A DNA stretch of 64,000 bases from Arabidopsis thaliana (Eukaryota; Streptophyta; Magnoliopsida; Brassicales; Brassicaceae), in NCBI RefSeq assembly GCF_000001735.4, contig NC_003074.8, positions 2,108,101-2,172,100 on the forward strand. Reading direction: 5' to 3'. Position 1 is the stretch's first letter. Each line of letters begins with the position of its first letter. The notes beneath the pieces were generated by a model. It was not told the DNA's origin, did not search any database, and saw nothing but the letters and a program-made list of their open reading frames with translations. The position numbers and the translations under genes are program-made. This document shows positions 24,745 through 31,214 of this stretch, piece after piece.

Positions 24745-24795
<51 letters not shown>
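24745..24795 (+). repeat. (TC)n microsatellite, 51 bp
   Basis: An uninterrupted run of 25.5 TC units ends 75 bp before the Di19 ATG, probably in the 5' UTR or core promoter. CT-rich leaders are common in plant genes, but a perfect tract this long is likely to vary in length between accessions. Confidence 0.95.
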
Positions 24796-27018: not shown

Positions 27019-28933
27019 CTAGACTGCAGCTCTACCGTAAGCATCAGCATCTCTCTTCAGCTCGGGACACGGTTCAGGAATGACTGACTCCGAGGACCCG
27101 TAAACGTAGGAGCATTGCCAAGAAACAGAAGAACCTGAGCTCATCGACAAAGAAACATTCGACAAAGTCACTGAGCTAAATGGAGATTCTTTGATCCCAA
27201 ACAATTTCCCCGCAATGCCAATGTTCTCTCCAGAAATGTTGCTTAATCTGATGTGACTCACAAGTGGGAGAGCATTCACATCATATTTATCATCAGGGTG
27301 AGATCCAAAGCTACCATTAGCAACAATGGCAGTACCTATTCTCAACATATCGATGTTTGAAATATCGATCTCTTTGATATAACCACCTCTGCCTTTTGTG
27401 GTTCTAAAGGCAATGCCGGTTAACGAGTAGTGTATATGAGCGTTATCAACCACGACATCAGATATTCCACCAGACATTTCACTGCCAAAGGAGATAGAGG
27501 AACCAGAAGCTCCTCGAAGGTACACATTTCTTATATGAACATTTTCAGTGGGACGAGAATAGGCAATTCCATATTCATCCCAACCGCTTTTGAGGGAAAT
27601 CGCGTCATACCCCACGTTAATGGTAGAGTTTTGGATGCAGACGTAATCAGAAGAATCTGAGAAACATAACAAAACATAAGACATTTCGTTCTTCTATGCT
27701 TAGACACAACAAAAAGGGTTTTAGTCTAGAAGAAGTAGAGACAACTAACCTGGTACAATACCGATTGTATAAGGAGATTTAGGAGAAGAATGGGCCAATA
27801 TCTTATGAATATATACATGGCTGCACAAGGACAGTATTAGAGTCAAGACTTTATCATTCAAAAAAACCAAAAAAAGGTTGAGGCCTAGATAGTGTTGAAC
27901 TATCTCTTACCTAGAGTAGATTGAATAGATTGAATAAGCAGGAGCATTCAAGAACGTAAGATTGGAGACAATTACATTTTCAGAAGAAAGAAACTCGATG
28001 AGGTGAGGACGGTTATACTTTAAGGAATGAGAAGTAAACCGATCCCACCAAACCAAGCCTTGACCATCTATAGTTCCATTATCACCTAACCAAGGAAAAG
28101 GATGGAGTAACCATATTATAATTTGAAGGATATTGTAACAAGTGAAAATGAAATAAAAATGTATAAAGCATAGTTTGTTACCTGTTACAACAACATCATG
28201 TAGCTTGTTACCGTTGATCAAACTCTTGTATCGCTTCCCAGGCAAATCAATTCCCCTTCCGTATGAAGGTAAAGGATCAACCACTTCCCAATGCGATGGA
28301 TCCTTTTGAAGTAAAAATTTGGGGTTTTTGGATAAATTTAAAAGTTTGGGATAAATGTGAGAATGAGAAAGAAGCATTGTAATATACCTGAGAAGCGACT
28401 ATAACGGCGCCGTTTTCGAGAAAGAGAGTGAGGTGGCTGGTGAGGCTAAAACTCCCGGTGAGCCAATGTCCCGGCGGAACATAGAGCTGGGCCCCACCTT
28501 TGTCGGCGAAAGACATAAGATAGAAAACGGCGTTTTGAAACGCAAGAGTGTTGAGCGTTTTGCCATCTCCAACAGCTCCAAAATCTGTAATGGAGACACT
28601 GTGTGGTCTTGTACTCAATGATCGCCGGCCAAGTTCGTCGCATATTTTCCCGGCGCCGTGAACGTTTGCGTAAATGGGAATAACACTGGTTAATGCCAGT
28701 ATCAAGATTGTTACCACCTGCTACAACAGAAGAATCTGAGTTAGAATTACAGATCCAGGTTTGTCAAACTGTTTAGAATCCGATCCAACGGAATGATGAA
28801 AAATAGAGAAGTAAATAGTTAAAGAAACGATGAAGAAGAGCAATTCCGAGAAAGGGACAACCTAGAAAGAAGAGGTATGTAATGTAATGGTAGTTAAGAG
28901 AGAAGCAAAAAGAGAGAACGCACTTACTGACAT
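27019..28933 (-). CDS. GH28 polygalacturonase-like secreted protein with altered catalytic motifs, 446 aa
   Basis: Exons (minus): 28928-28933 (two codons, ATG TCA), 28388-28717, 28182-28302, 27911-28085, 27750-27820, 27019-27656. Phases agree; 1341 bases, 446 residues. The N-terminus (MSVVTILILALTSVIPIYA) is a signal peptide. ITDFGAVGDGKTLNT opens the parallel beta-helix as in plant pectinases. NGTIDGQGLVWWD and the KSGWDEYGIAYSRPTENVHI block place it in the plant exo-polygalacturonase-like clade. Two catalytic motifs differ from the family: NTDG is Y228-T-I-G231, and the DD pair is G250-Y-D252. The GHG position is GSE, which is normal for this clade. Activity is therefore doubtful (see findings). 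I recall this as At3g06770, pectin lyase-like superfamily. Expected in the cell wall. Confidence 0.93.
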
Positions 28934-28994: not shown

Positions 28995-29007
28995 TTTTCG
29001 CGCCAAA
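28995..29007 (-). promoter_or_regulatory. E2F-type site in the polygalacturonase promoter
   Basis: TTTTCGCGCCAAA contains TTTCGCGC, a perfect plant E2F consensus (TTTSSCGC), 62 bp upstream of the start codon. It suggests cell-cycle or endocycle-linked expression; unproven. Confidence 0.5.
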
Positions 29008-29040: not shown

Positions 29041-30305
29041 AAGAAGAAGAGAAAGAATAAGAAGGAGAAGGAGAAGAGTTCTTTCTTCGTAACCACACCA
29101 CACAAAACAGTGAAGGTTTTTTTTTTTTATTCTGAGACAAAACAGTATGATTGACAGAAAAAAACGAATTTTTATTTACAGAAACATAAATAAATAATTT
29201 TTAGAAGAAAGAAAAATAAGGAAGGAAGAAGATTGACGCCGAAATGACAGCCTTATATGCGCAAATAAATTGATTTTGTTAATAATGCGAAATAGGAATA
29301 TAAAATAAGATATATAGAGAAAGAAATTGATTGTGGGAAAAGAGAGAAAATAGTAATCATTAATGTATAATCAATACTATACACTATTTAAGCAATTAAT
29401 GTCGAATATGTCTTCATATTGATTAATGGGATCTGGTAACGTATTATCGCCGACAAATCTTCTCGGCTTTGGAGAGAGAAGAGACGACGAGAGGGTGAGG
29501 AAGAAAAAACCAAGAGATAAGTTAATATGGCTGTTTTAAGCTGTGTGCCTTGCCAACAAAATAATAATATGAAAATATTATTGTAGTTTTGTTTAGACAA
29601 GGCATGTGTTTGATATTTTTTTTTGTTTTTATGTTCTGTTTCAATTATATTTTTTGTGCTCAAATTAAGATTTTTATATTAATTTTTCAAAATGTTTACA
29701 TATATGTCTCTGACTGTTTTTCCCTTATCTTTTAGATTTATCACCGTTCAAATATTATTATTCTAAATTAGTCAATAAAATGTACATATTTATCTTATAT
29801 TCTAATGGGAAAATAAGACCCATATGTTTATAAGTAATCTGAAAATTCATATTTACTAATGAGAACATTCTTTTTAAGTCCTGAAAAACTAGATTAGGCA
29901 AATTTTATGATCTGTTCCCTTTTTTTTTTTTTTGAATCTATACTACTATATAGGTTTTTAGGAACCAATAATTACTTATGTAGTTGATTTTTTATAAAGA
30001 AAATCATTGGAAATTATAAAATTTCGGAAGAAAATAAAGCTCAGATACAATGAAATTTAAAAATAATCTGAATAGGAAATAGAACATTCGACTTGAAAAA
30101 TAAAAGATGTAGAAGAAATGGTTAGAATAAGATTGAAGGAAGCAGTAAATGTGAAGAAGACGAGTAGAGCGGAGCATGTGGACTGACAGGGCGGGTATGG
30201 GTCCCACTCCAATCATACGTTAATTTGCCAGCCTGGCATTTCATGTCCTCTAATTTCGTCTAATTAAAATTAAATTAATTCTATAGTATTATTTTCAAAT
30301 AGTAA
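29041..30305. other. Intergenic, very AT-rich
   Basis: No gene or clear repeat family recognised. Poly-T at about 29919-29933. The minus-strand frames at 29388-29663 and 30004-30216 lack family features. Confidence 0.5.
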
Positions 30306-31214
30306 GGTCCAGTTTGTTTTTTCATCCAGATCATCTGGATGAAAAATGATGTTTGTTTTTGACAAATTAACAGATCATTTGGATGAATCATTTGGATGGT
30401 CCATCTGAATGACTTTGTAAATTTAGACTAATTTGTGAAACTCATTTGGATGAACTTGATCGAACCATTTGGATGGAGATGATTTAGTCCAAAAAACCGC
30501 AAAATCATATTTTCCCGCAAAAACCATAAAATCATGTTTTTCCGCCAAAATCACAAAATCATATTTCTCGCCAAAACCGTAAAATCATATTTTCCCACCA
30601 AACCGCAAAATCATATTTTTTCCGCCAAAACCGTAAAATCATATTTTCCCGCCAAAACCGTAAAATCGTATTTTCCCGCCAAAACCGCAAAATCGTATTT
30701 TCCCGCCAAAACCGTAAAATCATATTTTTCCCGCCAAAACCTAAAATTGTATTTTCCCGCCAAAACCGTAAAATCGTATTTTCACGCCAAAATCGTAAAA
30801 TTGTATTTTTCCCGCCAAAACTACAAAATCATGTTTTTCCGCCAAAACCTTATTATCATATTTTTCCACCAAAACCGTAAAATTATATTTTCCGCCAAAA
30901 CCACAAAATCATATTTCTCGCCAAAACTGTAAAATCATATTTTTCCGCCAAAACCGTAAAATCATTTCTTTATTAAAATTATATTTGGTAATGATGTTAA
31001 ATATTTGTCATTTGTTAAAATTATAGAATGGGTATTTTAGTCATTTTTATTAGAATGAGAATGTAGATGAATTACAAAATGATCAAACAAAGAAATATTC
31101 ATTTAAATGCATCATTTAGATAAAATACTAAATAATCAAACAAACATTATTCAAATGCATCATCTAAATAGATCATTTGGATGTAAATGCCAAATAATCA
31201 AACAAACAGGGCTG
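30306..31214. mobile_element. MITE-like non-autonomous DNA transposon (about 0.9 kb) with internal minisatellite
   Basis: The left end GGTCCAGTTTGTTTT (from 30306) and the reverse of the right end AGCCCTGTTTGTTTG (ending 31214) form imperfect terminal inverted repeats. Just inside both ends are repeated ATCCAAATGA/TCATTTGGATGA motifs: about seven on the left (30325-30485) and several degenerate ones on the right (31095-31185). Such subterminal motifs are typical transposase-binding repeats. The middle is a minisatellite (30497-30965). No transposase is encoded. The superfamily is uncertain (PIF/Harbinger- or hAT-like). The possible target duplication is weak: TAA on the left against TGA on the right. 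Confidence 0.7.
30497..30965 (+). repeat. 27-bp minisatellite, about 18 copies, with E2F-type sites
   Basis: Degenerate tandem units of 25-28 bases with the consensus CGCCAAAACCGTAAAATCAT then ATTTTCC. Seven junctions carry a perfect TTTCCCGC (E2F consensus TTTSSCGC), at about 30511, 30645, 30672, 30699, 30727, 30753 and 30808. Because 27 is a multiple of three, a spurious 132-codon repetitive frame runs through the array. Confidence 0.93.

Follow-up and report, generated by a model that had tools for sequence, protein, structure and literature searches.

Introduction

Transposable elements that carry sites for E2F factors have been described in the Brassicaceae, as an earlier note on the DNA studied here stated, and this is borne out by available excerpts of papers citing Henaff et al. 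(2014, Plant J 77:852), according to which such transposon-borne sites bind E2Fa (PMC12595863, PMC4110626). The carriers named in one of these excerpts are hAT, PIF/Harbinger and MULE MITEs together with Helitrons, and the MITE-borne sites of Arabidopsis thaliana are described there as lying close to genes and differing between ecotypes (PMC12595863). The share of Arabidopsis consensus E2F sites located in transposable elements has been put at 73% (excerpt of PMC7956360) and at up to 85% (excerpt of PMC4110626), the latter figure being given elsewhere for some Brassica species (excerpt of PMC8725346). About one-third of chromatin-bound RBR is found at transposable elements, some of which are expressed when RBR is lost, and the same excerpt describes the recruitment of RBR to transposons by E2F as not directly established (PMC7956360); another names MITEs in particular as RBR targets (excerpt of PMC7404004). 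E2FA has also been grouped with factors at euchromatic states (excerpt of PMC12867329), which counts against docking at the element described below. As to the sites themselves, E2F factors recognise TCCCGCC in vivo, with TSSCGSS as a looser form (excerpt of PMC5464667).

Two described systems are among the closest to the present element. The E2F-site MITEs of Brassicaceae (Henaff et al. 2014) likewise are MITEs with multiplied E2F sites, PIF/Harbinger and hAT elements included, and theirs bind E2Fa, as reported in excerpts of papers citing that work. The second system is the RBR1-bound MITEs of Arabidopsis (Bouyer et al. 2018); these are targeted by RBR, and most RBR-associated transposon sequences are reported to have an E2F motif (excerpts of PMC7404004 and PMC7956360). 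That transposons of Brassicaceae multiply E2F sites is already known; similar arrays in several unrelated transposon families are less expected, and it is this resemblance between superfamilies that deserves follow-up. Among the papers listed in literature searches, no title or opening of an abstract dealt with tandem E2F arrays in MITEs, and Henaff et al. (2014) may or may not contain the ~27-bp arrays and the superfamily likeness reported here.

Structure and class of the element

The DNA analysed (the window) is a 64-kb stretch of A. thaliana, C3:2108101-2172100, and includes a non-coding transposon that runs from 30306 to 31212 or 31213 (Table 1). A MITE-like element of 0.9 kb with terminal and subterminal repeats had been described here in the earlier note; its ends are indeed short terminal inverted repeats of the type found in its family, and the subterminal repeats read TTGGATG. 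The window copy has no exact target duplication, with TAA to the left of 30306 and TGA or GAG following the right end. A 149-aa open frame (30483-30932) runs through the array and is taken as a by-product of the array period, since 27 bp is divisible by three.

Table 1. Features of the transposon and its left flank (window coordinates)
Feature	Position	Strand	Remarks
Left flank TAA, candidate target duplication	30303..30305		Right flank without exact match
Left terminal inverted repeat GGTCCAGTTTGTTT	30306..30319	+	Family form GGCCCTGTTTGTTT, by eye from listed ends
Palindrome with perfect 14-bp arms, within left end	30318..30346		
Left subterminal region, (A)TCATTTGGATG repeated	30333..30480	+	
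27-bp minisatellite, 17.6 units, 7 perfect TTTCCCGC	30493..30965	+	TRF consensus AAAACCGTAAAATCATATTTTCCCGCC
Right region common to other family members	30966..31199	+	~74% identity to transposase-bearing PIF/Harbinger element
Right terminal inverted repeat	31200..31213	-	Reads AAACAAACAGGGCT on + strand

Tourist-type PIF/Harbinger MITEs are characterised by short terminal inverted repeats, 3-bp TTA/TAA target duplications and relatives with a PIF/Harbinger transposase. Target duplications were scored across the family in elements with both ends matched (27, one of which was dropped when its left end was not found); the 26 scored elements include two with visibly broken left ends (L023 and L048). 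The 3-bp flanks are identical in 11 of the 26 (TTA in four, TAA in four, and TAG, TAT and TCA in one each), eight of them being TTA or TAA, and twelve shifted registers give values of 0-3 of 26. For DDE_Tnp_4, a PIF/Harbinger transposase family, the genome shows 63 matches, and matches to the right end of the window element at C5:12544173, C1:22693956 and C4:11838453 sit 0.9-1.0 kb downstream of such domains. Reading of transposase-bearing stretches was confined to two of these three candidate places (L089 and L090) among all those with DDE_Tnp_4. L089 has the same terminal repeats as the window family, with ends GGTCCTGTTTGTTT and AAACAAACAGGGCC and TTA on both sides; its DDE_Tnp_4 match (E 6.6e-31) lies in a reading frame apparently split into two parts, and it is 74% identical to the window element over 225 bp at the right end and 80% over 49 bp at the left. 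L090 carries a 416-aa open frame with DDE_Tnp_4 (E 7.3e-29) and a right end 70% identical to that of the window element over 208 bp; its left end was not found. Between L089 and L090, the transposase regions are 98.9% identical over 1,177 bp and the right ends 86% over 292 bp, a difference that suggests either gene conversion or unequal constraint.

Because of the GGCCCTGTTTGTTT-like ends, the 3-bp TTA/TAA duplications in the family and the transposase-bearing relative, all of which the family shares with Tourist-type MITEs, the window element is classified as a non-autonomous PIF/Harbinger (Tourist-type) MITE. Assignment as a hAT MITE was rejected, as the family has GGCCCTG-like ends and 3-bp duplications, not TA-type ends and 8-bp duplications. 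The family differs from Tourist-type MITEs in having an internal minisatellite of 7-54 units, which is absent from L089 and L090. The word TTTCCCGC occurs neither in L089 (4,701 bases) nor in the stretch of L090 that was read, and descent of the array from a transposase-bearing element is thus unsupported by the two copies read.

The E2F-type array and its inheritance within the family

The earlier reader had counted some 18 repeats of a 27-bp unit, with a perfect site at seven junctions. TRF returns 17.6 head-to-tail units, which at 27 bp fall within the 10-60 bp span of minisatellites, and TTTCCCGC is present seven times in the 64-kb window, in each case inside the array. This exceeds chance, as 100 shuffles averaged 0.86 occurrences and never came to seven. 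TTTSSCGS, an E2F consensus, has 33 matches in the window, 18 of which lie inside the array; these fall on both strands because the core of the unit, TTTTCCCGCCAAAA, is near-palindromic and fits TTTSSCGS from either strand.

The genome (119.66 Mb, seven contigs) was searched with the whole element and with each of its ends. The whole-element search gave at least 62 matching segments, one of them a palindromic self-match, a lower bound in that 40 of 213 first-look candidates were scored. The left end has 41 matches (one being the element's own palindrome) and the right end 40, and loci were fetched for the best 30 places of the left-end (41) and right-end (40) searches. In decoding the arrays, all positions of the unit counted equally and a score cut-off was applied. 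By this measure, 36 of the 38 fetched family members, the window copy included, carry the array, and the other two (L062 and L068) have no such array above the cut-off. Among the 36, array length ranges from 157 to 1,408 bp (7-54 units, partial ones included) and the number of perfect TTTCCCGC from 1 to 22, with a median of 5 and a sum of 241; the window copy has seven. The search for related copies that the earlier note had named as a check therefore turned up copies with matching ends and array elsewhere, and its suggestion that the sites had multiplied locally, within one element, is ruled out by the presence of the array in 36 of 38 members. The unit must have been multiplied before the window copy inserted, and the array is an inherited character that belongs to the family.

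The longest array (L056/L084, C1:25696855-25698262) has 54 units, partial ones included, and 22 perfect TTTCCCGC; blocks of its units look as though they were duplicated together. The arrays of L015, L017 and L040 have several lost-core states in common, which would fit descent from a single source copy that had lost some of its sites beforehand.

It is likely that the window copy is a Tourist-type MITE moved by a transposase supplied in trans, that its source copy already carried an E2F-type array, that insertions seeded site clusters, and that an eroding remnant is what now stands at this locus. The enzyme would be a DDE transposase provided by related elements with like ends. The array of the source copy would have consisted of tandem units of ~27 bp, each with a near-palindromic E2F-type site (TTTTCCCGCCAAAA), and each insertion would have brought a new cluster of E2F-type sites.

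Similar arrays in hAT families

The genome holds 3,714 copies of TTTCCCGC, compared with 699 of the same word reversed. The word TTTCCCGCCAAAA is present 1,429 times against 0, and alone accounts for 1,429 of the 3,714 perfect TTTCCCGC. Pairs of TTTCCCGC spaced 23-33 bp apart number 642, against 2 in the control. Fifteen regions (L069-L083) were fetched round the first chromosome-1 matches of TTTCCCGCCAAAA. Seven of the fifteen belong to a family (B) with hAT-like ends TAGGGGTGTCA and a 28-bp unit, TTTTCCCGCCAAAAACGTAAACCCGTGA (TRF); its 8-bp duplication is exact in L073 and L080, agrees at seven of eight positions in L077 and L083, and is unreadable in three. Another family (C) comprises L069, L078 and, added from the search for TTTCCCGC pairs, L091-L093. 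It has ends TAGAGATGTT and the unit TTTTCCCGCCAAAAACGACATTCAACA (by eye). Of its members, L091 and L093 show exact 8-bp duplications, those of L069 and L092 agree at seven of eight positions, and none was found in L078. Both elements of family D (L070 and L071) have exact 8-bp duplications, with one and two perfect TTTCCCGC; the array is weaker, that of L071 having 6.4 copies of TTTTTCCGCCAAAACGGTAAAATTGTG with 63% matches (TRF). The likeness of these hAT MITEs to the window family thus lies in arrays of 26-28 bp round TTTTCCCGCCAAAA (B and C) or a one-base variant of it (D), and the difference in their TAGGGGTGTCA, TAGAGATGTT or TATAGCTGTCAA ends and 8-bp target duplications. At least three element families with regular arrays, and a weaker fourth, provide a concrete anatomy for part of the known genomic excess of E2F sites.

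Four of the fetched regions (L072, L074, L076 and L081) represent a further repeat group rich in inverted repeats (seen for L081) and scattered E2F words on both strands. The family B array of L083 (C1:8276776-8277128) is located ~460 bp from a PIF/Harbinger element (C1:8277585) with an array of its own, a proximity that might allow exchange between the two arrays.

As the search that led to families B, C and D used the core, its presence in all of them is in part a product of the method, a bias that two checks lessen. When the six core positions were left free, with TTTT and AAAA round the core still required, CCCGCC was by hand count the commonest filling in the window family (A; 21 of 53), in family C (14 of 21) and in family B (~62 among 100 of its 168 matches listed). 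The spacers played no part in finding the families and were compared with shuffled spacers for the six family pairs. Likeness was found for A-D (P 0.0007) and, weakly, for A-B (P 0.012) and B-D (P 0.019); A-C (P 0.21), B-C (P 0.18) and C-D (P 0.84) spacers were not alike by this test. Since six comparisons were made, only the A-D likeness is secure.

On the evidence of these spacers, the arrays of the PIF/Harbinger family and of one hAT family probably have a common origin, and those of family C would have either converged on the same form or diverged too far. The likeness across superfamilies suggests a shared module, or convergence. In its fullest form, the proposal would be of a mobile E2F-array module common to PIF/Harbinger and one, perhaps two, hAT families, with related spacers, and of a further hAT family with the same core and spacing and a different spacer; source elements would keep the module as S-phase docking of E2F-RBR helps them (through access, mobility or escape), and inserted copies would erode. 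We regard this proposal as tentative and rather unlikely to hold in full.

Erosion of the arrays

Changes to the arrays were examined in eight elements with colinear arrays, with differences scored against the majority sequence. Counting all differences, core and spacer did not differ significantly at the C of CpG (10/111 vs 11/156, P 0.65), at the G of CpG (19/111 vs 31/155, P 0.63) and at other C/G positions (50/469 vs 39/266, P 0.13), and A/T positions changed less in the core (33/1116 vs 54/1154, P 0.037); the totals are 112/1807 vs 135/1731 (P 0.065). These include 165 of 247 differences that are common to two or more copies and hence are older than single insertions or not independent. 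Private changes, in the same order, amount to 4/105 vs 8/153, 7/99 vs 12/136, 13/432 vs 12/239 and 9/1092 vs 17/1117 for core and spacer. No single base class is significant among the eight colinear copies, and the totals are 33/1728 (1.9%) for the core and 49/1645 (3.0%) for the spacer (P 0.045). The majority sequence has eight perfect cores, for which 31 of 58 comparable sites are intact, and the commonest lost forms are TTTCCCAC (eight), TTTCCCGT (six) and TTTTCCGC (four). The 36 elements together have 672 full units, of which 482 retain the core CpG and 399 the spacer CpG (by element, P 5e-5). The corresponding values are 104/128 vs 98/128 and 99/128 in family B, and 28/44 vs 28/44 in family C.

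Strong constraint on the E2F sites after insertion is not seen, as core decay nearly keeps pace with that of the spacers. The core may be under weak constraint, because of the small deficit of private changes and the higher retention of core CpG. Erosion of the arrays is accordingly read as near-neutral, with room for weak core constraint or for ancestral variety among the spacers. If 7e-9 mutations arise per site and generation, the private change at A/T positions (26/2209) would correspond to one to two million years, which is a loose figure. The window copy most probably has a leftover array whose sites are disappearing through ordinary mutation, and there is little to suggest upkeep by the host.

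These data bear on what the arrays are for. They may be a selected part of the transposons, docking of E2F/RBR tying the chromatin or mobility of an element to S phase, with unrelated source elements having converged on or exchanged arrays and inserted copies eroding. One PIF/Harbinger and three hAT-type families with 26-28-bp arrays and the same or nearly the same core are consistent with this, as are the prevalence of CCCGCC among open-core fillings in three families (A, B and C) and the lesser change of the core than of the spacer in private changes and CpG retention. However, the hAT families were found via the core, and the open-core searches kept TTTT and AAAA; the core-spacer difference is small, and in family C it is nil, both CpGs being intact in 28/44; and the transposase-bearing L089 and L090 are without TTTCCCGC in the stretches read. 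Selection of this kind is accordingly judged improbable, if conceivable. Whether arrays are useful to transposons or are ballast becomes a testable question.

Alternatively, replication slippage may have multiplied a unit that happened to contain an E2F-like word, giving a chance minisatellite that binds nothing. The wide variation in array length among the 36 elements (157-1,408 bp) and the near-neutral erosion fit such an origin; against it, like cores recur in four families (subject to the bias of a core-based search), and transposon-borne sites bind E2Fa in vivo according to excerpts of PMC12595863 and PMC4110626. An origin by slippage alone seems to us quite improbable.

Possible docking of E2F and RBR, and the neighbouring gene

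In the reading that we prefer, with the window copy as the eroding remnant of an inherited array, E2F/DP, and thereby RBR, would be able to dock on intact sites in dividing cells, by extension from the papers cited above, which deal with such transposons generally. Should this be true here, intact units would recruit E2F/RBR in dividing cells, in falling number.

The neighbouring polygalacturonase-like gene is represented by open frames on the minus strand at 27019-27693 (PF00295) and 28277-28720 (PF12708 only). The first coding stretch in reading order is the one at 28277-28720, and the element lies ~1.6 kb to its 5' side, a distance counted from that stretch rather than from a start codon. 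The array might act on this gene as an E2F-dependent enhancer or as a site that recruits a repressor. Seven perfect sites at this distance would favour such an effect, as would the report that MITE-borne E2F sites occur near genes and vary between ecotypes in A. thaliana (excerpt of PMC12595863). There is, however, little sign of site maintenance, and the 5' region of the gene has, outside the element, its own TTTTCGCGCCAAA (28995-29007), with overlapping E2F-like words on both strands, so that any E2F response of the gene need not come from the element. Regulation of the gene by the array is therefore considered very improbable. Nor does the locus stand out as the strong E2F sink or enhancer that had been envisaged, since it holds seven of the 3,714 genomic TTTCCCGC, close to the family median of 5, and core positions of the family decay nearly like the spacers. 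Elsewhere in the window, a perfect TC dinucleotide run of 25.5 copies is found at 24745-24795.
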